The notes under the pieces were generated by a model. It worked only from the letters and a program-made list of their open reading frames with translations, was not told where the DNA came from and ran no database searches. Source: Acidobacteriota bacterium (GTDB taxonomy: Bacteria; Acidobacteriota; Terriglobia; Bryobacterales; Bryobacteraceae). Taken from it: 38,033 bases of DNA. The translations under genes and the position numbers were made by a program. The stretch's first letter is position 1, and each line of letters begins with the position of its first letter. Location of the stretch: the NCBI GenBank assembly GCA_947470805.1, contig CANIVU010000087.1:1-38033 (forward strand), written 5' to 3'. Below are positions 17,430 to 35,098 of the stretch, piece by piece.

Positions 17430-17447
17430 ATCAGGACTTCTAACAGA

Positions 17448-17475
17448 ACGGGGACGAAGCGAACTTCGTCCCCGT
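17448..17475 (-). terminator. 12-bp hairpin between pal and cpoB (attenuator or mRNA stabiliser)
   Basis: On the minus strand ACGGGGACGAAG and its exact complement flank a TTCG loop. Only short, broken T's follow, so full termination is unlikely. Its place between two operon genes suggests differential expression, with more Pal than CpoB. Confidence 0.55.
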
Positions 17476-17498
17476 GGCTGGTTATTGGTTAGCGAGCG

Positions 17499-18296: not shown

Positions 18297-18354
18297 CCTG
18301 GTATCTGCCTCCTGGAATATTTTGCTGCGGTCGTATTACTTGAGATTAGTGCTG

Positions 18355-18367
18355 GGCGCCGAGCGCC
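18355..18367 (-). other. short GC hairpin between tolB and pal
   Basis: GGCGC-N3-GCGCC lies in the 76-bp tolB-pal gap. No T-run follows on the minus strand, so it is more likely an RNA processing or stability element than a terminator. Confidence 0.35.
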
Positions 18368-18372
18368 TGATG

Positions 18373-20501: not shown

Positions 20502-20935
20502 TAGCGGCGGCGGCCGGCCTCGTCAACCGGTTGCGTCACCATGCGGACGTCCAGTTTCGCCTGGCCCAGTTCGCTTACCACCTGCGCGATCGGGTCCCAC
20601 GGCGTGGCCTTATCGGCGCGCACGTAGACGGCCTTCTGCCCGGGGAAGCGCTTCTTCACCAGGTCGCCCACCTCGTTGATGTTGACGTCCTTTTCGTTCA
20701 GTTTCATTTCGCCGTCTTTGGAAATGGAGACGACGGGAAGCTCCTGCGAGGAGTTGCGGACCTGCTTCACCTTCGGCACGTCCACCTCCAGGCCGAACTC
20801 CATCACATGCGCCGTGAGCATGAAGATGATCAGCAGAACGAGTACGACGTCCACCAGCGGGATGATATTGATCTCGGCCAGCGAATCGAAATTGCCGCGC
20901 CGCCCGCGTCCGCCATGTTTCATGGAGAAGGCCAT
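20501..20935 (-). CDS. tolR: ExbD/TolR family motor protein
   Basis: The 144-residue protein has a basic N-terminus (KHGGRGRRG), the signature AEINIIPLVDVVLVLLIIFML with the proton-conducting Asp at the start of its single transmembrane helix (about residue 29), and a periplasmic ExbD-like domain ending ELGQAKLDVRMVTQP. TolR forms with TolQ the proton channel that energises TolA. GAAGGG precedes the ATG, and an ATG four codons in is possible. The gene starts 3 bp after tolQ and overlaps tolA by one base, so the three are tightly coupled. Confidence 0.95.
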   Translation of the reverse strand: MAFSMKHGGRGRRGNFDSLAEINIIPLVDVVLVLLIIFMLTAHVMEFGLEVDVPKVKQVRNSSQELPVVSISKDGEMKLNEKDVNINEVGDLVKKRFPGQKAVYVRADKATPWDPIAQVVSELGQAKLDVRMVTQPVDEAGRRR

Positions 20936-20938
20936 GGT

Positions 20939-21646
20939 TTACCCTTCGTAGACGCGTTCGATGAGGTTCATGAACTCCAGGCCGAAGTCGTCCATGCGGC
21001 CGCTGAGTTCGCGGATGACGAAGCCGAAGTAGTTATAAAAAATGGCGGCGGGGATGGCGGCGAACAGGCCCATGGCCGTTGCGATCAGCGCCTCGGCAAT
21101 GCCGGGGCCAACGGCCCGTAGGCTGGCCGCGCCCGCGCCCGTGAGCGCCTGGAACGCGTCGATAATGCCCCACACCGTGCCGAACAGCCCGACGAAGGGC
21201 GTGATGGCCGCCGTCGTCGCCAGCCAGTTCATGTTCTTTTCCAACCGGGCGATCTCTTCACCCGCGCCGATCTGCAGGCTGCGTTCCACGGCTGTACGGT
21301 TCGTTAGAGTCTTGCGGACCCGCACCTGCCGGTCCACTTCGGCGTATCCGTAGTCATAGACCGTCACCAGCGGCGCCGCCGGGAACTGTTCGCAAGCGGC
21401 CGTGATGCCCTCAAACCCGCTGGCCTTCCGGAAGGCGCGCAGGAACTTGCCATTCTCCTGCTGGGCGCGGCGCAGGCGGCTCCACTTGCTGAAAATGATG
21501 GCCCAGGAGTAGCAGCTGGCCACAACGAGAAGCGCAAGAACCGCCATGGAGATCGGCTTCGACGTGCTGACGAGGCTCCAAAGTCCGGGTGTGGACGGGG
21601 CGGCGGCGAGGGCGGGGAGGAAAAGGTGTATCAACAGACGCTCCAA
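20939..21646 (-). CDS. tolQ: MotA/TolQ/ExbB proton channel family protein TolQ
   Basis: The 235-residue inner-membrane protein has three hydrophobic segments (about 30-55, 135-160, 175-200). The conserved first part is GLWSLV, then VASCYSWAIIFSKWSRLRRA. The TolQ/ExbB core has LATTAAITPFVGLFGTVWGI and GPGIAEALIATAMGLFAAIPA. With TolR it forms the motor that couples proton flow to TolA. No ATG is available before the first helix. The TTG at 21646 follows GGGAAG closely, and a TTG four codons later has GGAG at a better distance, so the N-terminus is uncertain by a few residues. It is the first gene of the tol-pal cluster, 67 bp after the amidohydrolase gene, with no clear terminator or sigma-70 promoter between. 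Confidence 0.94.
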   Translation of the reverse strand: MERLLIHLFLPALAAAPSTPGLWSLVSTSKPISMAVLALLVVASCYSWAIIFSKWSRLRRAQQENGKFLRAFRKASGFEGITAACEQFPAAPLVTVYDYGYAEVDRQVRVRKTLTNRTAVERSLQIGAGEEIARLEKNMNWLATTAAITPFVGLFGTVWGIIDAFQALTGAGAASLRAVGPGIAEALIATAMGLFAAIPAAIFYNYFGFVIRELSGRMDDFGLEFMNLIERVYEG

Positions 21647-21713: not shown

Positions 21714-23342
21714 TTAGTGCTGATAAAGAACCCGGCCGTCGAAGACGGTCATATCGACCGTGGTTTTGTGAATATCCATCGTTGGGATGCTGAACAGATT
21801 CTGGTTCAGCACCACGATATCGGCCAGCAATCCGGGGCGGATCGTTCCTTTCACGGCTTCTTCCCGGCCCGCGTAGGCGCTGTTGGCCGTATAGGCGCGC
21901 AGCGCGGTTTCCACGCTCACACGTTCCTCCGGAATCCACCCTTGCGGCGGCAGGCCGGTGGTGGTGCGGCGGTTCACGGCGTTGTGGATGCCCCGGATCG
22001 GATTCAGCGAAATCGATGCCGGCCAGTCGCTCGAAAATACCAGCCGCCCGCCGGCCTTCTCGATACTCCGCCAGGCAAACCCGCGCCGCGTTCGCTCCGG
22101 ACCGATGCAGGCCGACCAGATTTCAATCGTCGCCGGGTCGGCGTGAATCGGCTGCATGGAGGGCAACACCCCCAGCGCGGCGAACCGAGGCATGTCCGCC
22201 GGGTCGATCGTTTCGATGTGCTCAATCCGGTGGCGGCCGGCGGGCGAAACCTTCGCGTAGCCGTCGAGCGCTATTCGCACCGCCCGGTCCCCGATCGCGT
22301 GGGTGAAGATCTGCAGGCCGAGCGAGTCGGCCATCGTGACCGTTTTCCCGAACTGTTCCGCGGTCCAGGCGGAGTTGCCGCTCGTGCCCGGCTTGTTCGA
22401 ATATGGCGCCAACATCGCGGCCGTATAGGATTCAATCACGCCGTCCATCATGATCTTGATCGCGCCCACCCGCAGCAGCGGACCGGCGTACTTCTGCCGC
22501 ATCGCCGCGTAGTCCCGCAGCGTGGCCTCGGTCTCCATCGGGCCGACGGACATCGCGAACGCCGCCCGCATCGTCAGCTTATTCCGGCTCTTCAACTCCT
22601 CATACAGCTCCAATTCGTCCAGCGAGCCATTCGCGTTCTGCACGCTGGTAATGCCCAACGACGCGGCCAGCCGCAGCCCCGCCTCCAAGCTGGCGAGCTT
22701 CTGATTCCGATCCGCCGTCGGAATCAATCGCCGAACCAACCCCATCGCACCTTCCTTCAATGTGCCCGTCGGCTCTCCCGTCTTCGGATCCTTGACGATC
22801 TCGCCAAACCCGGTGAAAGCGGTGTCCCTGGTGATCTTCGCCAACTCCAGTGCCTTCGAATTCACCCACGCGGTGTGCCCGTCATAGGCGGACAGAAACA
22901 CCGGGCGGTCCGGCACCACTTTGTCCAACTCCGCCTTGTTCGGCAGTCGCCCCCGCGGGATGCAGACGTACTCCCATCCGCGGCCATTCAGCCACTTGTC
23001 CGCCGGGTGCGCCTTGGCGAACTTCGCCACCTCCGCCTGCATCGCCTCCATCGTGCAGATGCCATTCAAATCGATCTGCGTCAGCCCCATCGATCCGCCA
23101 AGAAAATGCAGGTGCGCGTCATTAAATCCCGGAATCGTCAGGTGCCTTTTGAGATCAATAATCCGCGCACCCTTGGCCTGTTTGGCCACCTCCGCGTCGC
23201 TGCCCACGGCGGCAATCGTGTTGCCGCGAATCAGTACTGACTCGGCCCACGGCCGCGCCGCGTCGGCGGTCCAGATCGTACCGTTCCGCAACCACAAATC
23301 ATCAGCGAAGACCGAACAGGCCAGGAAGAAAAAGAGCCGCAT
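21714..23342 (-). CDS. secreted YtcJ-like amidohydrolase (amidohydrolase_3)
   Basis: The 542-residue protein has a short signal peptide (MRLFFFLACSVFA) and the amidohydrolase_3 domain throughout. Conserved points are LRNGTIWTAD at the N-terminal sandwich, the HLH metal motif in NDAHLHFLGG, AYDGHTAWVN, IKIMMDGVIESYTA, THAIGDRAV, HRIEHIE and FSSDWP with the catalytic Asp. The C-terminal TANSAYAGREEAVKGTIRPGLLADIVVL closes the composite sandwich. All expected metal ligands appear present, so a functional amide- or ester-hydrolase in the periplasm is likely, with the substrate unknown. The ATG overlaps the receptor stop (TAATG), so receptor and hydrolase are translated together. This suggests that the hydrolase processes whatever the receptor imports. 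Confidence 0.92.
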   Translation of the reverse strand: MRLFFFLACSVFADDLWLRNGTIWTADAARPWAESVLIRGNTIAAVGSDAEVAKQAKGARIIDLKRHLTIPGFNDAHLHFLGGSMGLTQIDLNGICTMEAMQAEVAKFAKAHPADKWLNGRGWEYVCIPRGRLPNKAELDKVVPDRPVFLSAYDGHTAWVNSKALELAKITRDTAFTGFGEIVKDPKTGEPTGTLKEGAMGLVRRLIPTADRNQKLASLEAGLRLAASLGITSVQNANGSLDELELYEELKSRNKLTMRAAFAMSVGPMETEATLRDYAAMRQKYAGPLLRVGAIKIMMDGVIESYTAAMLAPYSNKPGTSGNSAWTAEQFGKTVTMADSLGLQIFTHAIGDRAVRIALDGYAKVSPAGRHRIEHIETIDPADMPRFAALGVLPSMQPIHADPATIEIWSACIGPERTRRGFAWRSIEKAGGRLVFSSDWPASISLNPIRGIHNAVNRRTTTGLPPQGWIPEERVSVETALRAYTANSAYAGREEAVKGTIRPGLLADIVVLNQNLFSIPTMDIHKTTVDMTVFDGRVLYQH

Positions 23343-26300
23343 TAAAACGAGAATCGCACACCGAGTTGAATCCGGCGCGGATCGGCGGCGGAGGTGAAGC
23401 CCAGCGGGTCGCTCGGTCCCCGGTCGTCGCGGCCCCGCAGGTTGAACGGCCCGCTGATGTTGCCCACCACGTTGTTCACCGACGTGTAGTTCAGGTTGTT
23501 GAACAGGTTGAACGCCTCCGCCATGAATTCGAGCTTGCGGCCCTCCCCGGCTGGAATGCGGCGCGAAATGCGCAGATCGAACGCGCCGAACGCCGGGCCG
23601 ATGCCCGTGTTGCGGCCCGCGAAGTACGGCCGGTCTGTCGTGTTATGCCGGTCGTTGTTCAGTTCGGTCCCGGCCAGGAGGTTGAACGGCCGAGAGCCGG
23701 TATACCGGAAAATGGGCGTGAACAGCGTGTCGGCCCACAGGCGATTCGCCTTCTCCGGTGTTTGCAGCACGGCGTAGAGAACCACCTTGTGGCGCTGATC
23801 GAAGCTCGAAAGCGCCCGCTCCGCGCGCCGGTTGGTCTGGTCGTTGGGCTGAAAGTCGGAGTTGAAATCCGTCGTCTCGTCGATCGCCTTGGCGAACGTG
23901 TAGTTGAAGTGGAACGTCGCACGCCGGCTCATCCGGTGCGTCGCCTCCAGCATCAGGCCGTGGTAGCCGCTGGTGGCGTTGGACTCATACAAATTCTCCT
24001 GGAACACCAGCGGATTGACGAAGAACGCCGCGCCGGTTGGGTTGGCCGCGAACGGGCCCCAATCGCGAATCCCCTTGGCCGGATTGACCGGCGCCGGCAG
24101 CAGGTTGATGTCGCGCGACGTCGTCAGGTGCAGCCCGCGCACGCCGACATAGCTCGCCGAAACCGCCAGGTTTTTCACCATTTCTCGCTCGATGCCGAAG
24201 CTGAACTGTTGCGCGTAGCCGTTCACGTAATCCGGCGCCGGGCGGAACAGTACCGTCAAGGGCGGGCGCGGGCCGGTCTGGCTGACGTTGATGCCGAACT
24301 GCCGCAGGTCGCCCGCGGTAATCGGCCGCTGCGGCGTGGGAATGCCGATCACGCCCTGCGCCCGCAGCGTGGAGAAAATGTTGATCGGTCCGTTCGGCGC
24401 CGTTGGTGCCGACGCGTTCAACACGCTCAGCACCTGCGCAATCTGCCGCTTCCCGTCAATCTCATTCAGCGCCTGCACGACGTAGTCGATCTGGAAATCA
24501 ATCGGGGCATAAAACACGCCATACCCGCCCCGAATCGTCGTCTTCCGGTCCTTGCCCGGTGCCCAGGAGAAGCCCAGCCGCGGCGCAAAATTATTGGTGT
24601 CCGTCGGCAACGGCAGTTTGCGGTTGTCTCGCTCGTAACGGATGCCGTAGTTGAGCGTCAGGCCATTGACGGGCGTCCATGTATCCTGCGCATAAATCGC
24701 ATAGAGCGGAAGCGTGCCGCGCACAATCGGGTCTCCGAACCCTTGCTGGTAGCTCTGCGCCAGGCCCAGATTAAACGCCTGCAGCGAGTTGATACTGGTG
24801 CTGGCGAGCGCCGCATTCACAAGCGATCCCGGCAGCGCGCCAAACGTAAACCGGCCCGCCATAAATGTCGCCGAATCCTGCGTAACGTTGCGGATCAGTA
24901 CATTCCCGCCGAACTTCCACGCGTGTTTTCCGCGGAAAAGGCTGACGTTGTCGGCAATCTCGTTCCGCCGCGAAAGCGTGGTCGCGGGCAGATAACGGTC
25001 GCGGTTAAAACTGCCAAAGCCCGCGATGTCGAGCGACGGGCCGTTCGGGTCCGTGCTGGCCGTGTTCAGCACGTAGTGATTGAACTGCGCGCGGAATTCG
25101 TTCACCGCGGTCGGCGAAAACGAATGCGGATAGTTGAGCAATACCGTGTGATCCCGGAACGACTGGATGTACCCGCGCGACTGTCCCACCAGTGCGCCCA
25201 CTCCTTCGTTGGAATCGTAAATATTCGTCGCGTTGTAGCGGAAGCTCACCGCGTTCGCATCGCTGAATCGATGGTCGATGCGGAACATTCCTTTGTGGTC
25301 ATCGGTCTGAAACGGAAAGATCCCGCTGTTCTTCCGGAACATCTCCTGTACCGCCGGCGGGGTCGATAGCACGCCCCGCAACTGCGCCGCTGCCGGTGCA
25401 GGCAACCGCTGCAGTATCGCCTCCTGCTCCCTCGTCGGCCCAAAAATCGAAAGGTCCGTCAGCACCGGCACCGTCCGGTTTTCCCGGCGACGAAGCCGTT
25501 CGTAGCTCAGGAAATAGAACGTCTTGTCCTTGGCGATCGGCCCGCCAATTGTCCCCCCAAACTGCTGCCGGTCGGAGTCTGGTTTCACGCGCCGCAACAC
25601 GGTCCCTTCCAGGTTCACCGCGAACGGATCGGTCGCGTCCAATGACTGATGCCGGAAGAACGCGAACGCCGAGCCGTGCAATTGATTGGAGCCGGAGCGC
25701 GTGACGATGTTGATCACCCCGCCGCGCGCCGAACCGTGCTCGGCCGAATAGTTCGAACGGTTCACCTGGAACTCCTGCACAGCCTCCTGGCTTACCGTCG
25801 GCCGCACGCCGCCGCCCGGATCGTTGGCTTCGCCGCCGTCCACGTTCACGCTGTTCCCGCGCCCGTTAGAGCCGTAAAAGGACAGCCCGGAATCCGGCGT
25901 CTGTTTCACGCGAAAGCTGTTGGAATCGGCCAGCGCTTTGGAATCAGCCACCCCCGGCGCCAGCAGAGAAAACGTCAGATAATCGCGCCGGTTGATCGGT
26001 AGATTGCGCACCGAATCCTGTGTCAGCGTGTTCGACTGCTGCGTGCGTTGCGACTCGATCAGCGGCACTTCCGCCGTGACATTCAACTCCAGTTGCGACG
26101 CGGCCACGTCGAGATGGATCTCGAGCGTTGCTTCCTGCCCCACCGTCAACTCCAACCCGTCCCGCTTCCACGGCGCAAAGCCGGCTTTGCCCGCCTCCAC
26201 GCGGTAGATCCCCGGAACCACAAACGGCAACAGATAGGTGCCGTCGGTCCCGGCGACCGTCTCGAACTTGGCGTTCGTCGCGCTGTTTGTCAGGATCACG

Positions 26301-26428
26301 CGGACCTGCGTCACCCGCGCTTCGCTCGCATCCTGAACGATACCTCGCACGCTTGCGGTCGTCTTGGATTGCGCCATCGCGGTAATGGCAAGGAACGGAA
26401 GGAGTAGCCACTTTGAGGGCACGGACAT
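23342..26428 (-). CDS. Oar-like TonB-dependent receptor with carboxypeptidase-regulatory-like domain
   Basis: The 1028-residue outer-membrane protein has a signal peptide (MSVPSKWLLLPFLAITAMAQ) and a beta-sandwich carboxypeptidase-regulatory-like domain (about 25-105; ASVRGIVQDASEARV, GTYLLPFVVPGIYRVEAGKAGF). A plug follows (about 115-240; RNLPINRRDYLTFSLLAPGV, GRGNSVNVDGGEAND, EFQVNRSNYSAEHG). The rest is a long barrel ending in Phe (RIQLGVRFSF). This is the Oar/OmpA-related family expanded in Acidobacteriota. It should take up a large or polymeric substrate using TonB/ExbBD-type energy, perhaps via the adjacent TolQRA proteins. GGAGGT overlaps the kinase stop and lies four bases before the ATG, so it sits in the two-component operon. 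Confidence 0.95.
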   Translation of the reverse strand: MSVPSKWLLLPFLAITAMAQSKTTASVRGIVQDASEARVTQVRVILTNSATNAKFETVAGTDGTYLLPFVVPGIYRVEAGKAGFAPWKRDGLELTVGQEATLEIHLDVAASQLELNVTAEVPLIESQRTQQSNTLTQDSVRNLPINRRDYLTFSLLAPGVADSKALADSNSFRVKQTPDSGLSFYGSNGRGNSVNVDGGEANDPGGGVRPTVSQEAVQEFQVNRSNYSAEHGSARGGVINIVTRSGSNQLHGSAFAFFRHQSLDATDPFAVNLEGTVLRRVKPDSDRQQFGGTIGGPIAKDKTFYFLSYERLRRRENRTVPVLTDLSIFGPTREQEAILQRLPAPAAAQLRGVLSTPPAVQEMFRKNSGIFPFQTDDHKGMFRIDHRFSDANAVSFRYNATNIYDSNEGVGALVGQSRGYIQSFRDHTVLLNYPHSFSPTAVNEFRAQFNHYVLNTASTDPNGPSLDIAGFGSFNRDRYLPATTLSRRNEIADNVSLFRGKHAWKFGGNVLIRNVTQDSATFMAGRFTFGALPGSLVNAALASTSINSLQAFNLGLAQSYQQGFGDPIVRGTLPLYAIYAQDTWTPVNGLTLNYGIRYERDNRKLPLPTDTNNFAPRLGFSWAPGKDRKTTIRGGYGVFYAPIDFQIDYVVQALNEIDGKRQIAQVLSVLNASAPTAPNGPINIFSTLRAQGVIGIPTPQRPITAGDLRQFGINVSQTGPRPPLTVLFRPAPDYVNGYAQQFSFGIEREMVKNLAVSASYVGVRGLHLTTSRDINLLPAPVNPAKGIRDWGPFAANPTGAAFFVNPLVFQENLYESNATSGYHGLMLEATHRMSRRATFHFNYTFAKAIDETTDFNSDFQPNDQTNRRAERALSSFDQRHKVVLYAVLQTPEKANRLWADTLFTPIFRYTGSRPFNLLAGTELNNDRHNTTDRPYFAGRNTGIGPAFGAFDLRISRRIPAGEGRKLEFMAEAFNLFNNLNYTSVNNVVGNISGPFNLRGRDDRGPSDPLGFTSAADPRRIQLGVRFSF

Positions 26429-26437
26429 GGGAACCTC

Positions 26438-27769
26438 CTAATTTGGCGGACAAGGCAGTTGGAGCCGCGCGATGCAGCCGCGCGAGCCCTGCCTGTTAGT
26501 AAGTGCAAGGGATCCGCCATGCGCTTCTACGATCTGGCGGCACAATACGAGCCCGATTCCAGATCCTCCGGGCTTTGTCGTAAAGAAAGGCACAAATAAA
26601 TTCGCGGTCGCGGCCAATCCCGGTCCATCGTCCAAAATCTCAACGATAAGCTGCCACCGTTCGAAGCGCCATCTTATAACAATCCGTCCCCCATCGGTAT
26701 CGTTGGCGTCGGCCGCGTTCCGGAGCAGATTGATCAATACCTGCTCCAATTGGTCTCGGTCGGCCTGCAGCGCCAGATCCGGCCCGCCCTCGATCGTAAT
26801 TGGCACCCGCGTCTCCAGACGTGCTCCCCGCTGCAGCCAATCGGCCACCCGCACCGGAGCTAACGTCGGTCGTGGCAACCGCGCCAGCTTCGCGTATGCC
26901 CCCAGGAACCGCGCCAGCGACTCCGCCCGCCCCCCAATGATATTAAGCCCCCGCGTCATGTCCTCGTGCCAATCCTCCGGCAACGGGTCCTTCTTCAAGA
27001 TCGTCTCCAGCGACCCGGCAATCGATTTAATCGGCGTCAACGAGTTGTTCAACTCGTGCCCCAGCACGCGCACAATCCGCTGCCACGCCTGCAGCTCCTC
27101 CTCCCGCAACGGCCGCGTCAGGTCCGTAATGACCAGCAACTGGTGCGGCAACCCGCCCTCTCGGAACGACGTCCGGGCAATCCCCCACCGCCCGAAGCCC
27201 CCCGGAAACGCCCGCTGCACCGTGGTCGATTCCTCCCCGTCCAGAAACGTGTTCAACTCCAATTCCGCCGCCGGTAAATCAATCGCCCGCTCCGCCGGCA
27301 ACGCCAACAGGCGCTCCGCCGCCCGATTCAACAACTTCAATCTCCGCGCCTCATCAAACGCGAAAATCGCAACGTCGATCTCCTCCATCACCTTCCGCAA
27401 AAGCGTCGTCGCCTCCATCGCCCCCAGCCGCTGCGCCCGCAGCGTCGATCCCATCGCGTTCACCTGCTGCATCACATCCGACAGCGCATCGTCTCCGGTC
27501 CCGCCCCTCGCCCGGATCGAATAGTCGCCCTCCCGCATCGCCTCCAGCAAATTGGCGATCGTCCGCAACGGGCTCGCCACCCGCTCCCTCACCGCTGCCG
27601 CGAACCCCAGCCACGACCCGCCCAGCACCAGCCCCATCGTCCACAAAACCTTCGGCGGATAATCCCCCGTCCACAACACATAAACCGCAAAAACGATGGC
27701 GGGAAATCCCGCGGCCAGGGCCAGCAGTTGCGCATACCGCTCGTGCGAAATCCGCTCCCGGGGTTCCAT
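26438..27769 (-). CDS. NtrY/NtrB-like sensor histidine kinase
   Basis: The 443-residue membrane kinase has two N-terminal helices (about 16-33 and 42-60) with almost no periplasmic loop. A HAMP segment (about 62-112) and a PAS-like domain (about 120-220) follow. The HisKA dimerisation helix has H238 in VLGHELNNSLTPIKS, and the HATPase_c domain shows INLLRNAADAN, LDDGPGL, FFTTKPGGSGIGL and a final Gly-rich strand. The LNNSLTPIKS box is the NtrY form. With no sensory loop, it probably reads an intracellular or membrane cue. The ATG follows the regulator stop after one base (TAG-G-ATG), so the pair is coupled. It should phosphorylate D58 of the regulator. Confidence 0.94.
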   Translation of the reverse strand: MEPRERISHERYAQLLALAAGFPAIVFAVYVLWTGDYPPKVLWTMGLVLGGSWLGFAAAVRERVASPLRTIANLLEAMREGDYSIRARGGTGDDALSDVMQQVNAMGSTLRAQRLGAMEATTLLRKVMEEIDVAIFAFDEARRLKLLNRAAERLLALPAERAIDLPAAELELNTFLDGEESTTVQRAFPGGFGRWGIARTSFREGGLPHQLLVITDLTRPLREEELQAWQRIVRVLGHELNNSLTPIKSIAGSLETILKKDPLPEDWHEDMTRGLNIIGGRAESLARFLGAYAKLARLPRPTLAPVRVADWLQRGARLETRVPITIEGGPDLALQADRDQLEQVLINLLRNAADANDTDGGRIVIRWRFERWQLIVEILDDGPGLAATANLFVPFFTTKPGGSGIGLVLCRQIVEAHGGSLALTNRQGSRGCIARLQLPCPPN

Positions 27770-27770
27770 C

Positions 27771-29138
27771 CTACAAGCCGTACCGCTCCAGCCGCCGGTA
27801 CAGCGCACTGCGGCTCAACCCCAATACCCGCGCGGCGTGGCTGACATTCCCATCGTTCTTCGCCAGCGCCTTCTTGATCAGGAACTGCTCCACTTCCTCC
27901 AGGCTCATGTCCTCCAGGCGGCCCGACGATTCCCGGTTCGCCCGCAACGCCAAATCCACCGCGCGGATCTGGTCCCCCTGCGCCAGCAGCACCGCCCGCT
28001 CAATCACGTGGTTCAACTCCCGCACGTTCCCCTGCCACCCGTTCTCCAGTAGCAATCGCATCGCCGACGTATCGAACCCGTTCAAATTCTTCCGGTACCG
28101 CCGCGCGTGCGATGCCAGAAAATAACTCGCCAGATGCGGAATGTCTTCCTTCCGCTCCCGCAGCGGCGGCAGGTGAATTTCAATCGTGTTCAGCCGGAAC
28201 AGCAGGTCCTGCCGGAACCGGTTCTCCCGCACCTCCACGTCCAGGTTCGCGTTTGTCGCGCTGATAATCCGCACGTCCACGCGCTTGGTCTTCGACGACC
28301 CCACCCGCTCCATCTCCCCGATCTCCAGCACCCGCAGCAGCTTCGTCTGCAGGCTGATCGGCACGTTCGCGATCTCGTCCAGAAACAGCGTCCCCGAATC
28401 GGCCAGTTCGAACCGCCCCACCCGGTCCAGCTTCGCGTCCGTAAACGCGCCCTTCACATGTCCGAACAGTTCGCTCTCAAACACGCCCTCGGCCAGCCCG
28501 CCCGCGTTCACCGTAATCATCGGCTTATCGCGCCGCAATGACAGCGCGTGCAGCGTCCGCGCCACCACCTCTTTGCCCGTCCCCGGCTCGCCAGTCACCA
28601 GCACGTTTGCGTCCGACGGCCCCACCCTCGAAATCATATCCAGCACCGGCTGCATCGCCGCGCATTCGGCAATCATCGTCGGCCGCCCGTCGCTGTTGAA
28701 CAGCCGGTTCTCCGCCTCCAGCCGCGCGCTCTTCCGCAACGCCTCGGCCAGCTCAATCTGCGTTTTCACAATCGCCAGCAACCGTGCGTTTTCCCACGGT
28801 TTCTGCACGAAATCCCGCGCCCCGTGCCGCATCGCCTCCACCGCCAACTCCACCGATCCCCACGCCGTCATCACCACCACCGGCAGCGATGGATCAATCC
28901 CCGCGAGTTGCGCCAACAGGTCCAACCCCTCCTGCCCGCTCGTCGTGTCGCGCGTGTAGTTCAGGTCCATTAACAGACAATCGAACTCGCGAATCCCCAG
29001 CGCCGCCACCACCGCGGCCGGCGAAGAGGCGGTCTCAATCTGATACCCCTCGCCCTTCAACAGGAAGCGCAGCGCCTCCAGAACATCGGGTTGGTCACCG
29101 GCGACAAGGATACGGGTTTGCTTCGTTGGCTTATTCAC
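27771..29138 (-). CDS. NtrC-family sigma-54-dependent response regulator
   Basis: The 455-residue activator has a receiver (1-125; phospho-acceptor D58, K113; the acidic pocket is AGDQ instead of DDE). The AAA+ domain (about 150-390) has Walker A GEPGTGKE (183-190), the sigma-54-contact loop GAFTDA (230-235, a variant of GAFTGA) and Walker B LFLDEI (251-256). A Fis-type helix-turn-helix is at the end (NVSHAARVLGLSRSALYRRL). It should drive sigma-54 RNA polymerase open-complex formation when phosphorylated. The start is set at the GTG at 29138, giving the normal receiver N-terminus; an ATG at 29183 is in frame but lies upstream of the inferred transcription start. No ribosome site is seen. It precedes the kinase and probably the receptor and hydrolase on one transcript. 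Confidence 0.92.
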   Translation of the reverse strand: MNKPTKQTRILVAGDQPDVLEALRFLLKGEGYQIETASSPAAVVAALGIREFDCLLMDLNYTRDTTSGQEGLDLLAQLAGIDPSLPVVVMTAWGSVELAVEAMRHGARDFVQKPWENARLLAIVKTQIELAEALRKSARLEAENRLFNSDGRPTMIAECAAMQPVLDMISRVGPSDANVLVTGEPGTGKEVVARTLHALSLRRDKPMITVNAGGLAEGVFESELFGHVKGAFTDAKLDRVGRFELADSGTLFLDEIANVPISLQTKLLRVLEIGEMERVGSSKTKRVDVRIISATNANLDVEVRENRFRQDLLFRLNTIEIHLPPLRERKEDIPHLASYFLASHARRYRKNLNGFDTSAMRLLLENGWQGNVRELNHVIERAVLLAQGDQIRAVDLALRANRESSGRLEDMSLEEVEQFLIKKALAKNDGNVSHAARVLGLSRSALYRRLERYGL

Positions 29139-29143
29139 GGCGG

Positions 29144-29195
29144 AGTCAGCTGCAAACTCTGCAAGCTGACTTCCATTGTGCATGCGGTTTGCAGC
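29144..29195. promoter_or_regulatory. two overlapping inverted repeats around the regulator promoter
   Basis: One dyad is AGTCAGCT (29144-29151) with AGCTGACT (29164-29171). The second is GCTGCAAAC (29149-29157) with GTTTGCAGC (29187-29195). Both are perfect and bracket the -12 element. They could be operators or form alternative hairpins in the leader. Confidence 0.5.
29160..29175 (-). promoter_or_regulatory. sigma-54 type -24/-12 promoter of the regulator-kinase operon
   Basis: The minus strand reads TGGAAGTCAGCTTGCA, with GG and GC separated by exactly 10 bp (consensus TGGCACG-N4-TTGCW). Transcription would begin near 29150, about 12 bases before the GTG at 29138. The adjacent dyads at 29230-29265, around -88 and -107, support the call. 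Confidence 0.55.
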
Positions 29196-29223
29196 ATTGG
29201 ACAAAACCCCGCCAGTGCCCAGT

Positions 29224-29266
29224 AAAAAGTGTCCGGTTCCGGGACAACTGTCTCGGAACCGCACAC
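29224..29266 (-). terminator. intrinsic terminator after the DUF4097 operon
   Basis: On the minus strand an 18-nt arm pairs with its partner (three internal mismatches) around a 2-bp spacer and is followed by TTTTT (29224-29228). It begins two bases after the DUF4097 stop. It also overlaps the proposed enhancer sites, so both functions may share this DNA. Confidence 0.75.
29230..29265. promoter_or_regulatory. tandem dyads, proposed enhancer sites for the NtrC-type regulator
   Basis: TGTCCGGTTCCGGGACA (29230-29246) and TGTCTCGGAACCGCACA (29249-29265) are two imperfect 17-bp palindromes, two bases apart. A similar dyad occurs at 35060-35076 before the adaptor operon. Their distance from the -24/-12 element fits an activator enhancer. 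Confidence 0.45.
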
Positions 29267-29267
29267 A

Positions 29268-30035
29268 TTACTTCGCCCGGCGTATATAAATCGTCCCGTT
29301 CATGCTCCGCATCGAGATCTCCGGTCCGCCGCCATTCAACTGCGCGCTCACAATCCGCTCCAGATTCAGCTTGTACTTCGGCCCGTGTTCCCGCTTCGAT
29401 TCCGTCCGGTTCACGCTCGATGTCACCGCCAGATCAAAATCGCTATACGTATCCCCGCGCTGATTGTTGATCTTCAACTCCGCCTTCGCCGACGCCGGCA
29501 ACGTCACGTCAATCCGCCCGTTCATCGTGCTGAACGACATCGGTTTCCCCGCCGGCATGCTCTTCATATTCACCGTCAGTCGCCCGTTCAACGAATGCGC
29601 CACCACCGGCCCCGATGCGTCCACAATTACAATCGACCCGTTTACTGTATCGGCGTTAATCTCGCCCTCCACCCCCTCCACGCGCAACTCCTTCGCGTTC
29701 ACCGAACGGATATGCACCGAACTCTTCTCCGGCACCAGCACCATGTACGACCCGTTCCCCTGCGGCGATTTGATCGTGACAACGTTGTTCTCCTCCTCAA
29801 CGTTCACCCCGCCCATCCCGCTCAGAATCTGCTTCATCCCGTTCGGCGCCGCCTGCGTCCGCGGCCCCGCGTAGTCCATCTCAATCACAACATCCTTGCC
29901 CGCATGAGCCTTGATCTGGATGCTCCCGTTGATCGTCGAAACCTTCACCAGCGCTGGCCGCGAAGCGTCCCGCAACGGCACGTTGATCCGCTCCCCAAAC
30001 GCCGAAACAGCCAAAACAAACAAGAGAAATCGCAT
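29268..30035 (-). CDS. secreted DUF4097 beta-strand repeat protein (second copy)
   Basis: The 255-residue protein has a signal peptide (MRFLLFVLAVSAFGE) and a right-handed beta-helix-like domain of the DUF4097 family. Its repeated strand motif is x-S-T-x-N-G-x-I or x-V-N-G-x-I (STINGSIQI, DTVNGSIVI, STMNGRIDV, SMNGTIYI). Such proteins are exported or envelope-associated, and the family is of unknown function. It starts one base after the other DUF4097 gene and is the last gene of the sigma-factor operon, followed by a strong terminator. It shares the repeat pattern with its neighbour but differs in sequence and lacks the long charged insert seen there, so the pair arose from an old duplication. 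Confidence 0.85.
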   Translation of the reverse strand: MRFLLFVLAVSAFGERINVPLRDASRPALVKVSTINGSIQIKAHAGKDVVIEMDYAGPRTQAAPNGMKQILSGMGGVNVEEENNVVTIKSPQGNGSYMVLVPEKSSVHIRSVNAKELRVEGVEGEINADTVNGSIVIVDASGPVVAHSLNGRLTVNMKSMPAGKPMSFSTMNGRIDVTLPASAKAELKINNQRGDTYSDFDLAVTSSVNRTESKREHGPKYKLNLERIVSAQLNGGGPEISMRSMNGTIYIRRAK

Positions 30036-30036
30036 C

Positions 30037-30882
30037 TTACGGCCGCCCTTTCGCCAACGAATGAATCAGGATAGACCCGTTCACCGTCTCCGTGCTGATC
30101 TTCGGCCCGCCGTTCCCAGCCCGCAGCGCGCCCGATGTCCCACGCCGGTGGATCACCTTCATCCCCTTCGTCTCTTCCCCGCCAATCGACGCCATGTCGA
30201 AGTCCGTATACGCCTTCCCGTTCACCGTCTTCACGTGAAAATCCGCGCTCAACGACAGCTGGAAATACAGGTCCAACTTCCCATTCACCGTCCGGAATTT
30301 CGTCTCCGCCGAAGGGTTCTGCTGATACGTCGCCACAACGGTCCCATTCACCGTCGACACCTCTCCCGCCCCCGCCACATCGGTCATCTTAATCCCCCCA
30401 TTCACCGTCGTCACCACATAGGTGCCCGTCGTCCCCGTCACTTCAATCCCGCCATTCACCGTGCGAATTTCCAACCGCGCCCCCCGCGGCGCCACCACGT
30501 TCACCTCATGCTCCACTTTCGTCTCGTTCCATTCCCAACGCCCGCGCTTCTCCCCGCGCGGTTGGTCGTCCCGACGCCCGCACTCCCGGCCACCCCACGG
30601 CCCCTTCACCCCGGCCCGCACCGCGCCCGTCTCCGCCGTAATCACAAAATCCACTTCTTTCTTCAACTCCTCCAGCCGCTCCCGCGTCGGCGCCGAAATC
30701 CGCTCCCGCACCGTGAACCGGACGTCGTTCCCATCGCCCGCCGTCACGCGCACGGACCCATTCATTCCGCACACCGCCAGGCTCCCATTCGCCCCCAGCG
30801 GCACCGTCTTTTCAATCGTGCGCGTTGACTCCTCCGCGCTCCACGCCGCCACCGCGGCCACCAGCAAAATAAACCGTTTCAT
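30037..30882 (-). CDS. secreted DUF4097 beta-strand repeat protein (first copy)
   Basis: The 281-residue protein has a signal peptide (MKRFILLVAAVAAWSAE) and DUF4097 strand repeats (CGMNGSVRV, RTVNGGIEV, TTVNGGIKM, STVNGTVVA, RTVNGKLDL, KTVNGKAYT, ETVNGSILI), with about seven copies of T-V-N-G. Between the first and second repeats lies a charged insert of about 60 residues (GGRECGRRDDQPRGEKRGRWEW) that is probably an exposed loop. Cellular function is unknown; an envelope role is inferred from the leader and from control by the ECF sigma/anti-sigma pair. The ATG overlaps the anti-sigma stop by four bases (ATGA). Confidence 0.85.
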   Translation of the reverse strand: MKRFILLVAAVAAWSAEESTRTIEKTVPLGANGSLAVCGMNGSVRVTAGDGNDVRFTVRERISAPTRERLEELKKEVDFVITAETGAVRAGVKGPWGGRECGRRDDQPRGEKRGRWEWNETKVEHEVNVVAPRGARLEIRTVNGGIEVTGTTGTYVVTTVNGGIKMTDVAGAGEVSTVNGTVVATYQQNPSAETKFRTVNGKLDLYFQLSLSADFHVKTVNGKAYTDFDMASIGGEETKGMKVIHRRGTSGALRAGNGGPKISTETVNGSILIHSLAKGRP

Positions 30883-31631
30883 TGATATTGATTCCCTTGT
30901 TTGCGTTGATTTGAGAGCAGCGCTTGCAGGTAATCCCGTACATTCGCATCCAACCCCGCCCGGTCCCGCAGCTTCTCCAGCCGCGCCCGCGCCGATGGGT
31001 CTTTCCCCGCCGCCAGCAGATCGATCACTGCAATCTGCACCAGCGGCGAATCATCCTGTTCCAATAATTTCCAGGCCGACTCCCGCGCCGCCGCCGGCAG
31101 CGGAAAGCGCCGCAACGCCTCCGCCGCCGCCAGCCGTACATCCACGCTCGAATCGTTCGACAGCGTCCGCGACAAAGCGTCCACCACCTCCGGGTCCGTC
31201 CCCTCCAGCGCCGCGCTGTACCGGATTCCCCGCAGCCGCTCACTCGCCGACTGCTGGTCCAACAACGACAGCGCCACCACCTCCCGCAGATTCCTCACCT
31301 CACCCCGCAAACTCGCAATATCGGACTCCGTCCGCGGTGCCGTATACCGCCCCGCCACGAAGCTCATTACGCCCACCACCACAGCCGCCGCCACCGCGCC
31401 CCACGCCCATCGTGGCGCCGACGGCCGTGGCGCGATCCGCTGCGCAAACCGCGCCGGCAAATCGGCCGCGGGCAAGGCCTCCGGCATCTCCCCCATCGCA
31501 TCCCACAACGCCGCATTCGCTCGGCACGAAGCGCAAGTCGCCATGTGCCCCTCCGCCCGCGCCCGCGCCGCCGCCGTGGCCGATCCAGCCAGCGTATCCG
31601 CAATATCAACCGCAAATTCCGAACACGTCAT
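30879..31631 (-). CDS. anti-sigma factor with zinc finger and HEAT-like repeats
   Basis: The 250-residue protein begins with a zf-HC2 anti-sigma domain (H29-x3-C33-x2-C36). A linker and one transmembrane helix (about 75-94, WAWGAVAAAVVVGVMSFVAG) follow. The C-terminal part (about 130-240) has HEAT-type helical repeats (VDVRLAAAEALRRF, SPLVQIAVIDLLAA) facing the periplasm. It should hold the ECF sigma factor at the membrane and release it on an envelope signal; the HEAT part may sense the signal. It starts 2 bp after the sigma gene and overlaps the DUF4097 gene downstream. Gene order and the ZAS motif make the role secure; the signal is unknown. Confidence 0.9.
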   Translation of the reverse strand: MTCSEFAVDIADTLAGSATAAARARAEGHMATCASCRANAALWDAMGEMPEALPAADLPARFAQRIAPRPSAPRWAWGAVAAAVVVGVMSFVAGRYTAPRTESDIASLRGEVRNLREVVALSLLDQQSASERLRGIRYSAALEGTDPEVVDALSRTLSNDSSVDVRLAAAEALRRFPLPAAARESAWKLLEQDDSPLVQIAVIDLLAAGKDPSARARLEKLRDRAGLDANVRDYLQALLSNQRKQGNQYQ

Positions 31632-31633
31632 CG

Positions 31634-32215
31634 CTAGCTCCTCCCGCCCATCGCGGCCAGTCCCGACTCTCCTGAAATCCGCTCGTAAATCTCTCGCAAC
31701 TGCCCCAGGGCCCGGAACACCCGTACCTTCACTGTATTCGTCTCCACGCCCAACAACTCACCAATCTGCTCATACTTCAACCCCTGGAACCGGCTCAGCA
31801 CCAGAAACTCCCGCTTGTCCGCCGGCAGCGCCATCAGCGCCCGGTGCAGCATCGCGTGCTCCTGGTCCTGCTCCAACTGCCGCCCGGCCGGTGCGGCGAT
31901 GTCCCACTTCTCCGGCATCGCGGTCTCCCATTTACTCTTCCGTGTGTGGTCGATAAAGGCGTTGTGCGCGATCCGGTACATCCAGCTCGAAAACCGCGCC
32001 TCTCTCTGCCACGTTTCACTCTTGCGCAACATCCGCAGAAACACGTCCTGCGCCAGGTCTTCACTCAGCGCCGCGCTCCCCGACATCCGCAAGAAGTACC
32101 GATACAGCGCCGCATGATGACGTCGAAACAGCTCGCCCAGCGCCGGGGTATCCCCGCCCTGGACCGCCGCCATCAGTTGCTCGTCCGTATCGCTCAACAA
32201 CAAGTCTGCTCTCAC
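31634..32215 (-). CDS. ECF-type RNA polymerase sigma factor
   Basis: The 193-residue sigma factor has region 2 (about 30-95; LFRRHHAALYRYFLRM, LAQDVFLRML, FSSWMYRIAHNAFIDHTRK) and region 4 (about 125-180; LMALPADKREFLVLSRFQGLKYEQIGELLGVETNTVKVRVFRAL). It lacks regions 1.1 and 3 as expected for the ECF group. The start is the GTG at 32215, giving SDTDEQLMAAVQGGDTPALGELF before region 2. The promoter elements at 32221-32248 place transcription initiation within a base or two of this GTG, so translation may be leaderless. It leads the operon sigma, anti-sigma, DUF4097, DUF4097. Confidence 0.93.
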   Translation of the reverse strand: MRADLLLSDTDEQLMAAVQGGDTPALGELFRRHHAALYRYFLRMSGSAALSEDLAQDVFLRMLRKSETWQREARFSSWMYRIAHNAFIDHTRKSKWETAMPEKWDIAAPAGRQLEQDQEHAMLHRALMALPADKREFLVLSRFQGLKYEQIGELLGVETNTVKVRVFRALGQLREIYERISGESGLAAMGGRS

Positions 32216-32220
32216 TCTCT

Positions 32221-32248
32221 CTTACGAGCGCAGCCGCCGATAGTTACA
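32221..32248 (-). promoter_or_regulatory. ECF-type promoter of the sigma factor operon (probable autoregulation)
   Basis: On the minus strand TGTAAC (32243-32248) is followed after 16 bp by CGTAAG (32221-32226). This matches known ECF -35 AAC and -10 CGTA elements. With initiation about 7 bp after the -10, the mRNA would begin at or next to the GTG at 32215. Confidence 0.6.
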
Positions 32249-32282
32249 AAAAAAGCCGATGTGCCACCGAGGGCGCACCGGC
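32248..32282 (-). terminator. intrinsic terminator after the ABC ATPase operon
   Basis: On the minus strand an 11-bp stem (one mismatch, one G-U) ending ATCGGC is followed by seven T's (32248-32254), 22 bp after the ATPase stop. The last T is also the first base of the proposed -35 of the sigma operon. Confidence 0.75.
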
Positions 32283-32303
32283 ATAGGGGAAAGTCACGGG
32301 AAA

Positions 32304-32978
32304 TTATTGGGTTTCCACCCACCCATCGCGCAACTGAATAATCCGGTTTCCATGCGCCGCATTCCTCTCGTTGTGCGTCACCTGGATGATCGTTGTCCCC
32401 TCGCTGTTCAGCTTCTTGAACATCTGCATAATCTCCTCGCCCTGCGACGAATGCAGGTTCCCCGTCGGCTCATCGGCCAGGATGATCTGCGGATTGCTCA
32501 CCACCGCCCGCGCAATGCCCACCAACTGCTGCTGCCCGCCCGAAAGCTGGTTCGGAAACAGGTCCTTCTTACCCACCATCTGGAACCGGTCCAATACGTC
32601 GGCAACAATGCTCTCCCGCTCGCTCCGCTTGATATTGCGGTACGTCAGCGGTACCTCTAAATTCTCGTAAACCGTCAAACTATCCAGTAGATGGTAGCTC
32701 TGGAAAACAAAGCCAAAATGCGCCTTGTAAACCTCCATCCGGTCCTTCTTGCCCATCGAATGAATCGGCCGGCCCATCAGGAAGTACTCCCCGCGCCATG
32801 ACGCGTCGTGCATCCCCAGAATGTGCAGCAACGTCGATTTTCCGGCGCCCGACGGGCCCATAATCGATACAAAATCGCCCGCCGCGATATCCAGGTTCAC
32901 CTGTCGCAGCACGTACGTCCGCGACACTCCGTGCTCGAAGTACTTCTCAACGCCGCGCAGTTGAACCAGCGGGCTCAT
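32304..32978 (-). CDS. ABC transporter ATP-binding protein, MacB/LolD type (second ATPase)
   Basis: The 224-residue ATPase has Walker A GPSGAGKS (41-48), a Q-loop FVFQS (about 90-94), signature LSGGQ (145-149), Walker B IILADE (165-170) and an H-loop VTHNE. The D-loop region reads TGNLHSSQG instead of the usual NLDS, so the conserved Asp is His176. This should weaken, or alter, coupling between the two sites. It lies in the cytoplasm bound to a membrane permease in the LolD/MacB group, which exports lipoproteins, peptides or macrolides. Its ATG overlaps the first ATPase by four bases. No permease follows; a strong terminator lies 22 bp downstream. Confidence 0.92.
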   Translation of the reverse strand: MSPLVQLRGVEKYFEHGVSRTYVLRQVNLDIAAGDFVSIMGPSGAGKSTLLHILGMHDASWRGEYFLMGRPIHSMGKKDRMEVYKAHFGFVFQSYHLLDSLTVYENLEVPLTYRNIKRSERESIVADVLDRFQMVGKKDLFPNQLSGGQQQLVGIARAVVSNPQIILADEPTGNLHSSQGEEIMQMFKKLNSEGTTIIQVTHNERNAAHGNRIIQLRDGWVETQ

Positions 32979-33673
32979 GCCGCCGGCGCTTCCCGCGACT
33001 CTTCCACAATCCGTCCGTCAAACAGGTGAATCTCCCGGTCGGCGTACTTGGCATATCGCGGGTCGTGCGTCACCATGCAGATCGTCGCCCCGCCCCGGTG
33101 CAGTTCACGCAGCAGGTCCATCACCTGCTCGCCGTTCTGCGAATCCAAATTACCCGTCGGCTCGTCCGCCAGCAGGATCGACGGATCCCCGGCCAACGCC
33201 CGCGCCACCGCCACGCGCTGCTGCTGGCCGCCCGAAAGCTGCGACGGATAGTGCTTAATCCGGTGGCTCATCCCCACCCGTTCCAACGCCTCCAACACGC
33301 GCTTCTTCCGCTCCGCCCCGCTCATTCCGCGGTACGTCAACGGCAGTTCGACGTTCTCGTACACCGTCAAATCGCCAATCAAATTGAACGCCTGGAAAAT
33401 GAACCCGATCTCCCGGTTCCGGATCCGCGCCCGCTCGGCCAATTTCAAATCCTGCACCGGCCGGCCGTTTAGTACATACGACCCGCCGCTCGGCGAATCC
33501 AGCAGCCCCAGAATCGCCAGCAGTGTCGACTTCCCGCAGCCCGACGGCCCCGAAATCGATACATACTCCCCACGCTTGAGGTTCAAGTGAATCCCCGCCA
33601 GCGCGTGCGTCTCCACTTCGTCGGTCGTAAACACCTTGGTCACGCCGTCCATCACAAGAAGAGCGTCGCTCAT
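32975..33673 (-). CDS. ABC transporter ATP-binding protein, MacB/LolD type (first ATPase)
   Basis: The 232-residue ATPase has Walker A GPSGCGKST (42-50), FIFQAFNLIGDLT, signature LSGGQ (146-150), Walker B ILLADE (166-171), a canonical TGNLDSQ D-loop and VTHDPRYA. All catalytic motifs appear intact. It belongs to the MacB/LolD family, which couples ATP hydrolysis to mechanotransmission-type export with a FtsX-fold permease and a periplasmic adaptor such as the product encoded just upstream. It starts 15 bp after the adaptor gene and overlaps the next ATPase (ATGA). The pairing of one canonical and one D-loop-altered ATPase raises the possibility of a heterodimer, an inference. Confidence 0.94.
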   Translation of the reverse strand: MSDALLVMDGVTKVFTTDEVETHALAGIHLNLKRGEYVSISGPSGCGKSTLLAILGLLDSPSGGSYVLNGRPVQDLKLAERARIRNREIGFIFQAFNLIGDLTVYENVELPLTYRGMSGAERKKRVLEALERVGMSHRIKHYPSQLSGGQQQRVAVARALAGDPSILLADEPTGNLDSQNGEQVMDLLRELHRGGATICMVTHDPRYAKYADREIHLFDGRIVEESREAPAA

Positions 33674-33688
33674 ATGAATCCCTGTCCC

Positions 33689-34945
33689 CTATTTCTTCAA
33701 TTTGATGCGATTCTGCGAATCGTGCTGCGACATATCGGAGAGCAGCACCGTGTCCCCAACGCTCAGCCCTTCCACGACTTCAATGTGGTTCACCGACGCT
33801 CGCCCCAGTTTCACCGGCACGCGCACGGCCTCATCCGTCCCCGCCACCAGTTTAAACAGCGTGATCGTGCTGTGCGGCTGCCCGTACACCGGCCGGCCGA
33901 CGTACACCACATCGGCAATCCGCTCCAGGTCCACGGTGCCATCCACGCTCAGGTCCGGCCGCGCGCCCGCGGGCAACGCCCCGTCCAATTTCACGTCCAC
34001 CGTCACAGTCCCGTTAATCGCCGCCGGATCAATCCGCGACACATGCCCCGGAATCAGACCGTTCCGAGTATCGATCGTCGCCGCCTGGCCAATCAGAATG
34101 TCCTTCGTCTGCGTCTCGGCAATCTTCAATTCCGCCTTCAGCTTCGTCGGCTGCGCCACCTTCGCCAGCACCGCGCCCGGCAGTACTTTCTGCCCCACTT
34201 CCACCGCCATCTGCTGCAATACACCCGCCGCCCCGGCCCGTACCTTCAACTGCATCACCTGCTGCTTCTTCAACTCCCAGGCGGCTTTCAACTTTTCAAT
34301 CTGCACCGTCTGCGCGGCCAGTTGCGCCTCTACCGACTCGGCGAAATTCGACACCCGCTGGTTCTCAATCTTCGTCCGCCCGGCCAGTTCATCGGCCTTC
34401 GCCTTGGTCAGCTTATATTCCAAATCGGACTTCAGCCCCAGCTTGATCAGCGCCTCGTCCCGGTCCGCTTGCAGCTTCGCCTGGCTGAACTCGCTCGACA
34501 CGCGCGCCGCGTTCGACACCTGGTCCAGCCGCTGCGATTCCAGCTTCACCTTCAAATCCCGATACGTGGCAACCGCCGCTTTCACCTGCCACTCGGCGTC
34601 AAACGCCGCCAGTTGCAACTCCGGATTGCTCAGCTCCAGCAGCACCGTATCGGCCTTCACAATGGCCCCGGCGCGCATGTGGATCTTCTCCACCCGCCCC
34701 TCGGAAATCGCGGGCACAAACAGAATCTCTTCCGGGACCAGGGTGCCCATCCCGCGCACATTCCGCAGCATCGGCCCGCGCTTCACCGTGTCCGGCCAAA
34801 CGGTGGAGAAGTCCACCGAAACCGCCGCCGGCTGCATCTTGCCCAGCCAAAAGGTAATGCCGCCCGCCGCCGCCAGAACCACCACACCGACCACAATCCG
34901 CCGGATCAATCGTTTTTTTGCTGCTCCCTCGCGAGGTACGTCCAT
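33689..34945 (-). CDS. MacA/HlyD-type periplasmic adaptor of an ABC exporter
   Basis: The 418-residue protein has a basic N-terminus (KKRLIRR) and one membrane helix (about 15-34). The membrane-fusion-protein architecture follows: a lipoyl/hairpin domain (about 65-115 and 225-260; EGRVEKIHMRAGAIVKADTVLLEL, GVLQQMAVEVGQKVLPGAVLA), a long coiled coil between (about 118-230) and beta-barrel/membrane-proximal domains to the end (VEVVEGLSVGDTVLLSD-like). It should bridge the inner-membrane transporter and an outer-membrane channel. AGGA lies seven bases before the ATG. A sigma-54-type promoter at 34969-34983 would give a leader of about 12 bases. Confidence 0.92.
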   Translation of the reverse strand: MDVPREGAAKKRLIRRIVVGVVVLAAAGGITFWLGKMQPAAVSVDFSTVWPDTVKRGPMLRNVRGMGTLVPEEILFVPAISEGRVEKIHMRAGAIVKADTVLLELSNPELQLAAFDAEWQVKAAVATYRDLKVKLESQRLDQVSNAARVSSEFSQAKLQADRDEALIKLGLKSDLEYKLTKAKADELAGRTKIENQRVSNFAESVEAQLAAQTVQIEKLKAAWELKKQQVMQLKVRAGAAGVLQQMAVEVGQKVLPGAVLAKVAQPTKLKAELKIAETQTKDILIGQAATIDTRNGLIPGHVSRIDPAAINGTVTVDVKLDGALPAGARPDLSVDGTVDLERIADVVYVGRPVYGQPHSTITLFKLVAGTDEAVRVPVKLGRASVNHIEVVEGLSVGDTVLLSDMSQHDSQNRIKLKK

Positions 34946-34968
34946 GAAGTTTTCCTATCCCCTCTATC

Positions 34969-34983
34969 GCAACTGCGCGGCCA
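34969..34983 (-). promoter_or_regulatory. sigma-54 type -24/-12 promoter of the adaptor/ATPase operon
   Basis: The minus strand reads TGGCCGCGCAGTTGC, with TGGC and TTGC correctly spaced (GG-N10-GC). Initiation near 34957 leaves a 12-base leader that still contains AGGA before the ATG at 34945. A matching dyad lies at about -111. Confidence 0.6.
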
Positions 34984-35057
34984 ATCCCCATCAAACGCGT
35001 AACTGCTTCTGATCAATCACTTTAGCGCAGCACTGCCGTCGGGGTATACAGCCGCCA

Positions 35058-35098
35058 GGTGTCCGCTTGTGGGACGGCATGGCCACTTCCGGACCACC
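35058..35098. promoter_or_regulatory. dyad/hairpin upstream of the adaptor operon, proposed enhancer site
   Basis: TGTCCGCTTGTGGGACG (35060-35076) resembles the dyads before the regulator operon. A degenerate second copy, TGGCCACTTCCGGACCA (35080-35096), follows, centres 20 bp apart. The whole also folds as one hairpin (GGTGTCCG with CGGACCACC), but no T-run follows, so it is a poor terminator for the TPR gene. Confidence 0.4.

Follow-up and report, generated by a model that had tools for sequence, protein, structure and literature searches.

Response regulators of the ZraR, NtrC and PEP-CTERM types have known operators, which are dyads lying upstream of -24/-12 promoter elements. Intramembrane-sensing histidine kinases carry two membrane helices joined by a loop of under ~25 residues, and the kinases of Bce systems are of this short-loop design. 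The ADOP permeases (acidobacterial duplicated orphan permeases, TIGR03434) form a family described as lacking nearby ATPases. The RAST label of ADOP, in the part of PMC11573002 that quotes it, is 'of unknown function'. A section of PMC5985334 places MacAB-TolC under PhoPQ in Salmonella and E. coli, and presents BceRS-BceAB modules, in which a two-component system accompanies an ABC transporter of the MacB-like kind. We analysed a 38,033-nt stretch of DNA, contig CANIVU010000087.1 of a member of the Bryobacteraceae (the window), focusing on positions 27,771-35,098. The window carries an adaptor/ATPase/ATPase operon and an operon that begins with an NtrC-type response regulator and a histidine kinase. 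Comparison of these sequences with those of relatives makes it likely that one kinase-regulator pair controls its own sigma-54 operon together with a dispersed MacAB-TolC-like exporter with ADOP permeases.

This predicted system resembles MacAB-TolC in its adaptor, its ATPase and permease parts of the MacB family, its TolC-type channel and its two-component control, and differs from it in the separate ATPase and permease genes, the duplicated ADOP permease, the dispersal of the parts and the proposed control by sigma-54 and an NtrC-type regulator. With BceRS-BceAB it shares the combination of a transporter with a two-component system, and the kinase here apparently has two helices with hardly any loop between them; unlike BceRS-BceAB, it uses an NtrC-type regulator and sigma-54, and an adaptor and an outer-membrane channel are present. 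The regulator is like those of the ZraR, NtrC and PEP-CTERM types in domain layout, in dyads upstream of -24/-12 elements and in likely autoregulation. However, its targets are different, and it scores under the curated NCBIfam cut-offs for ZraR (362.5 vs 760 bits), NtrC (360.6 vs 558.6 bits) and PEP_resp_reg (375.3 vs 502.6 bits), the AtoC cut-off likewise not being reached. In contrast to the family as described, the ADOPs found here have an operator in common with the adaptor/ATPase operon, or lie in it.

A preliminary description of the window had placed a -24/-12 element with exact GG-N10-GC spacing, a dyad upstream of it and a degenerate second dyad copy before each of the two operons. 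All four element positions were confirmed, with the spacing as claimed at the regulator promoter (TGGAAGTCAGCTTGC, dyad TGTCCCGGAACCGGACA) and at the exporter promoter (TGGCCGCGCAGTTGC, dyad CGTCCCACAAGCGGACA; Table 1). The second copies are also present, as TGTGCGGTTCCGAGACA with 2 mismatches at the regulator promoter and as the weaker TGGTCCGGAAGTGGCCA, which starts 20 bp upstream of the dyad, at the exporter promoter. Neither the dyad nor the -24/-12 element discriminates alone, since single elements are as common as expected or more so: the window contains 15 dyads with at most 2 mismatches (16.7 expected), and its 71 loose -24/-12 matches make these commoner than in shuffled sequence (42.6). 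As an ordered pair, defined as a dyad with at most 1 mismatch followed 40-100 bp downstream by a loose -24/-12 element, they occur 2 times in the window. Across 60 first-order Markov simulations the mean was 0.05 and the highest count 1, this null being somewhat too low because loose -24/-12 matches exceed those in shuffles. The exact dyad TGTCC-N7-GGACA was dropped as a genome-wide probe: the 8.7 Mb genome has it at 3 places and a control pattern at 5. Its other two copies are inside open reading frames (ORFs), P-type-ATPase-like in one case (contig C86; L068 6840-8762) and at the start of a zinc-ribbon-like one in the other (contig C91; L069 7629-8492), the placement resting on positions and both labels being taken from reading; neither copy is among the promoter-linked scan matches (gap 30-60 bp). 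A loose dyad-plus-promoter scan of the same genome returned 24 matches vs 23 for the control, that is, no enrichment at that looseness. The informative form of the putative operator is GTCCC-N5-CGGACA.

Regulator orthologues were found in relatives, and 34 loci were taken and oriented. Of 24 genomes searched for the adaptor, 19 have it, the window's included, and in 19/19 of these loci the operator stands before it, 108-133 nt ahead of the start (no mismatch in 14, one in 3, two in 2), with a -24/-12 element in 18/19. Both kinds of element are thus conserved in relatives. Among 13 further, more distant adaptor loci, the operator is present with at most one mismatch in 8 and with two in 2. Regulator loci of the same genus have it in 10/14 (8 exact, 2 with one mismatch), one of the 14 beginning at a contig end. 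The strongest evidence for one regulator serving both operons comes from five genomes (G001, G005, G008, G011 and G017) in which the adaptor is on a different contig from the regulator, and is absent from the ~12.8 kb read upstream of it, and both promoters carry the operator. It is exact at all five adaptors and at three of the regulators, with one mismatch at those of G008 and G017. Loci of other genera (L048, L050, L051, L054 and L060) have adaptor, ATPases, regulator and kinase in one run, with an operator of at most two mismatches before the adaptor and none plausibly placed before the regulator, L051 having a two-mismatch match 255 nt upstream.

We then counted a strict unit (GTCCC-N5-CGGACA and, 41-101 bp further, TGG-N9-TGC) in 150 genomes of the family, using the reversed pattern as control, and obtained 168 sites vs 10. 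The regulator orthologue is present in 108/150 of these genomes. At least one site was found in 83/108 genomes with the orthologue vs 6/42 without it (Fisher p=3e-12, uncorrected for relatedness). The way in which sites track the orthologue, and the one-run loci with an operator only before the adaptor, give independent support to this regulator as the binder, as the preliminary description had supposed; binding itself we still infer. Its assignment as NtrC-type also held (Response_reg, PF00158 and HTH_8), and the genome has an rpoN match at one place (PF04552, 198.7 bits).

Measured from dyad to promoter, start to start, the distances of 68 non-redundant sites cluster at 58-61 (16 sites), 67-71 (19), 77-82 (14) and 90-94 bp (17), with 2 others, and the clusters step by about one helical turn (Rayleigh R 0.64, p ~1e-12 at 10.5 bp; R 0.70 at 11 bp). 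The 52 sites at distances of at least 62 bp give R 0.58 and p 3e-8 at 10.5 bp. Operator positions that the pattern leaves unfixed are conserved too, with A at position 6 in 52/68, at 8 in 53/68 and at 9 in 59/68. The weaker second dyad copy peaks at an upstream shift of 21 bp (z 4.9 across shifts), single-site scores being weak.

Target classes were assigned from the first downstream gene, by BLAST to a few references. For 118 distinct sites, whose loci were partly obtained by homology, this gene is an adaptor in 44 cases, an ADOP in 27, the regulator in 17, a TolC in 11, an ATPase in 2, a DUF4097 gene heading the regulator run in 1 and another gene in 16; the site at G019:C116 (distance 57) was left outside the classes. 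Among the sites listed, 83 (of the 168) are in loci found by pattern only (L205-L288), and these precede an ADOP in 26 cases, an adaptor in 25, a TolC in 10, the regulator in 8, a DUF4097 gene at the head of that run in 1, an ATPase in 1 and other genes in 12. All 18 ADOPs scanned, which are in relatives and none in the window, exceed the TIGR03434 cut-off of 622.3 bits, and 8/8 TolC-class ORFs scanned match PF02321. The preliminary description had missed this extent, namely ADOP permeases and TolC-type channels with the operator-promoter unit in relatives, and we found no account of the regulon in the literature searched, which left out most subscription papers. One genome, G073, has six sites, which precede two ADOPs, an adaptor-ATPase-ADOP run, a TolC, the regulator and another protein whose receiver domain is related. 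At L260 a 391-aa ORF has its own intact operator and a receiver domain 61% identical to that of the regulator, with a convergent ADOP downstream; its product is possibly a second responder.

Within the window the exporter is represented by the adaptor and two ATPases; its operon has no TolC gene and no permease gene, none following ATPase 2, and ADOP and TolC genes are located elsewhere in the genome. The TolC gene (L298, G000:C1:153784-155598) has a one-mismatch operator, 30 bp upstream of which lies a second dyad. An operator of at most two mismatches is found at TolC in nine of ten same-genus genomes searched. ADOPs with the unit occur in the same-genus genomes G013, G006 and G018, the last having two. 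The genome of the window itself has 29 ADOP-model matches, 8 of them full-score, none with an operator of at most one mismatch, so the ADOP link in this species rests on relatives.

Outside the family, 150 genomes of other families from a class draw of 200 gave 21 sites vs 10 control matches, a modest excess. All 21 were read: 9 directly precede an ADOP (which in one case lies 267 nt downstream), 3 a PadR gene (PF03551) and then an ADOP (L303, L304 and L308), 1 a TolC, 2 an ABC ATPase with a regulator match downstream and 6 other genes. Thus 15/21 stand before regulon-type genes, which is far from chance expectation, no formal test being applied. The PadR gene between unit and ADOP indicates that some ADOPs may be under double control. 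In L330 and L331, from another family, the ABC ATPase after the unit is of a different kind, and the regulator match (64-65%) lies ~2.8 kb downstream.

Several observations weigh against this account. The strict pattern is blind to distances below 58 bp and thereby truncates the lowest cluster; the loci examined contain four sites at 57 bp and none shorter. No strict site is present in 25/108 genomes with the regulator, 6/42 without it have one, and relatedness makes the p-values too small. Twelve of the 83 pattern-only sites are unexplained; singletons among the other genes, such as those before a transporter-like ORF (L276 and L280), are likely to be chance matches. The operator is missing at 3/13 distant adaptor loci (L057, L063 and L065) and at 3/14 same-genus regulator loci (L045-L047), and outside the family only 21 sites stand against 10 control matches. 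The genome of the window was found to have the intact unit only at the two window sites and at one match on contig C51, which was rejected as a regulon member and is likely chance, since neither a promoter nor a gene is convincing there. Its 29 ADOP-model matches all lack an operator of one mismatch or fewer ahead of the start: the L177 ADOP has a two-mismatch match without promoter, and that of L178 (C13:83324-85804) a three-mismatch operator 58 bp before a -24/-12-like element. The TolC gene has TGGAAC 66 bp downstream of its operator, followed by a poor -12.

From the sites, their spacing, their co-occurrence with the regulator and the identities of the genes, which are observed, we infer binding, activation and assembly along the following lines. 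The kinase and regulator would activate sigma-54 promoters through GTCCC-N5-CGGACA, the dyad preceding the -24 element by 57-94 bp (start to start) and often having a weaker copy ~20-21 bp further upstream. By analogy with its family, the phosphorylated regulator would bind the dyads and reach the sigma-54 polymerase by looping, switching on both the operon that encodes it and the adaptor/ATPase/ATPase operon. The levels of adaptor, ATPases, ADOP and TolC would rise together, so that all parts of one exporter would be co-produced. ADOPs contain MacB_PCD and FtsX stretches, two of each, but lack an ATPase domain (3/3 scanned with Pfam), and match the permease part of MacB. Since an ADOP thus corresponds to two MacB-like halves without ATPase, a single ADOP joined by both ATPases would form one pump, mirroring the MacB dimer. 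A more speculative extension, which we consider possible rather than probable, is that ADOPs are interchangeable inner-membrane cores of one modular exporter: the permease-less adaptor and ATPase pair would serve many ADOPs and TolC, the short-loop kinase would sense transporter activity, and sigma-54 would switch on the set.

A real regulon in which the ADOPs are separate exporters working with other ATPases, and respond to a common stress signal without forming one machine, is a serious contender, if short of an even chance. It would account for the 8 full-score ADOPs of the window's genome without an operator of at most one mismatch, and for the absence of adaptor and ATPase from the downstream side, the one read, in 18/18 ADOP loci that bear the operator and extend at least 3.5 kb downstream; moreover, co-regulation is no proof of complex formation. 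However, of 27 adaptor loci that extend 4 kb or more downstream, 9 have an ADOP in the 4.3 kb read, L060 has two ADOPs between the two ATPases, and in L266 an ADOP heads the run containing regulator and kinase, to which the lack of an ATPase domain in ADOP and its match to the MacB permease part can be added. Counts of ATPase 2 were left unused owing to its cross-match with ATPase 1. It is improbable that a different NtrC-type regulator binds the operator and that this regulator is merely a target. The genome has 26 PF00158 matches, some weak, and sites do occur in a few genomes without the orthologue, but the co-occurrence with this orthologue is strong, the regulator forms one run with the exporter in other genera, and SRSALYRRL is found at the end of the recognition helix in 26/35 regulator sequences, with close variants in most others. 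That the window elements are chance matches in GC-rich DNA is very hard to credit: each is common on its own, but the ordered pair beats the Markov null, and conservation before every one of the 19 adaptors and the tracking of the regulator across 150 genomes contradict such a reading.

The kinase has two separate hydrophobic segments in 27/33 sequences by crude hydropathy, the window's among them. Its two predicted helices and short loop suggest that, like the kinases of Bce systems, it senses within or across the membrane. The preliminary description had one two-component system controlling a receptor, a hydrolase and an exporter; the exporter part of that claim is supported, and the case for receptor and hydrolase is weak. 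A TonB-type receptor follows the kinase in 5/14 same-genus loci (L034, L035, L036, L038 and L044), and in L037 the hydrolase comes directly after the kinase, without such a receptor. Hydrolase conservation is mostly unreadable, as the locus sequences end before it. An operator was found for neither gene in the window, and control would be by read-through. The best reading is that receptor and hydrolase are lineage-specific riders. After the hydrolase, on the same strand, lies a cluster at 16524-21646 labelled Tol-Pal-like from reading, into which transcription of the regulator operon might extend.

The genes of this region are all on the minus strand, a TPR protein (labelled from reading of the sequence) coming first and the others following in the order of Table 1. 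An ECF sigma factor is located upstream of the regulator in 8/14 same-genus loci. The HEAT-repeat protein is a probable anti-sigma factor, a label suggested by its position. In other genera, some loci of the regulon (L153, L244, L251, L265 and L283) contain DUF4097-like genes as well.

Table 1. Promoter elements and genes of the exporter and regulator region, in order along the minus strand.
Feature	Position	Strand	Remarks
Primary operator dyad CGTCCCACAAGCGGACA, exporter operon	35060..35076	-	kept before adaptor in 19/19 loci, window included
Sigma-54 -24/-12 element TGGCCGCGCAGTTGC, exporter operon	34969..34983	-	93 bp start to start from dyad
Periplasmic adaptor (membrane fusion protein)	33689..34945	-	Pfam HlyD_3, HlyD_D23; NCBIfam RND_mfp and DarC matches, both under curated cut-off
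ABC ATPase 1, MacB/LolD/DarD-like	32975..33673	-	PF00005; top NCBIfam match DarD, under cut-off
ABC ATPase 2, MacB/LolD/DarD-like	32304..32978	-	PF00005
ECF sigma factor, between exporter and regulator	31634..32215	-	PF04542, PF08281
HEAT-repeat protein	30879..31631	-	HEAT_2; 4-nt overlap with DUF4097-like gene
DUF4097-like (toastrack) protein	30037..30882	-	under Pfam cut-off
DUF4097 (toastrack) protein	29268..30035	-	PF13349
Primary operator dyad TGTCCCGGAACCGGACA, regulator operon	29230..29246	-	second copy 29249-29265
Sigma-54 -24/-12 element TGGAAGTCAGCTTGC, regulator operon	29161..29175	-	71 bp from dyad
NtrC-type response regulator	27771..29138	-	GTG start at 29138; PF00072, PF00158, PF02954
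Histidine kinase with PAS	26438..27772	-	two predicted membrane helices, very short loop
TonB-dependent receptor-like protein	23342..26428	-	PF25183, PF00593
Amidohydrolase	21714..23342	-	PF07969

Through the shared operator-promoter unit, many ADOPs of this family and of others in the class are tied to one adaptor, two ATPases, a channel and a sensor. This names candidate partners for ADOPs, together with a system that would induce them, and what energises them becomes testable. The operator lets export regulons of a little-studied group be read from sequence, and its distribution suggests that scattered genes may build one export machine.

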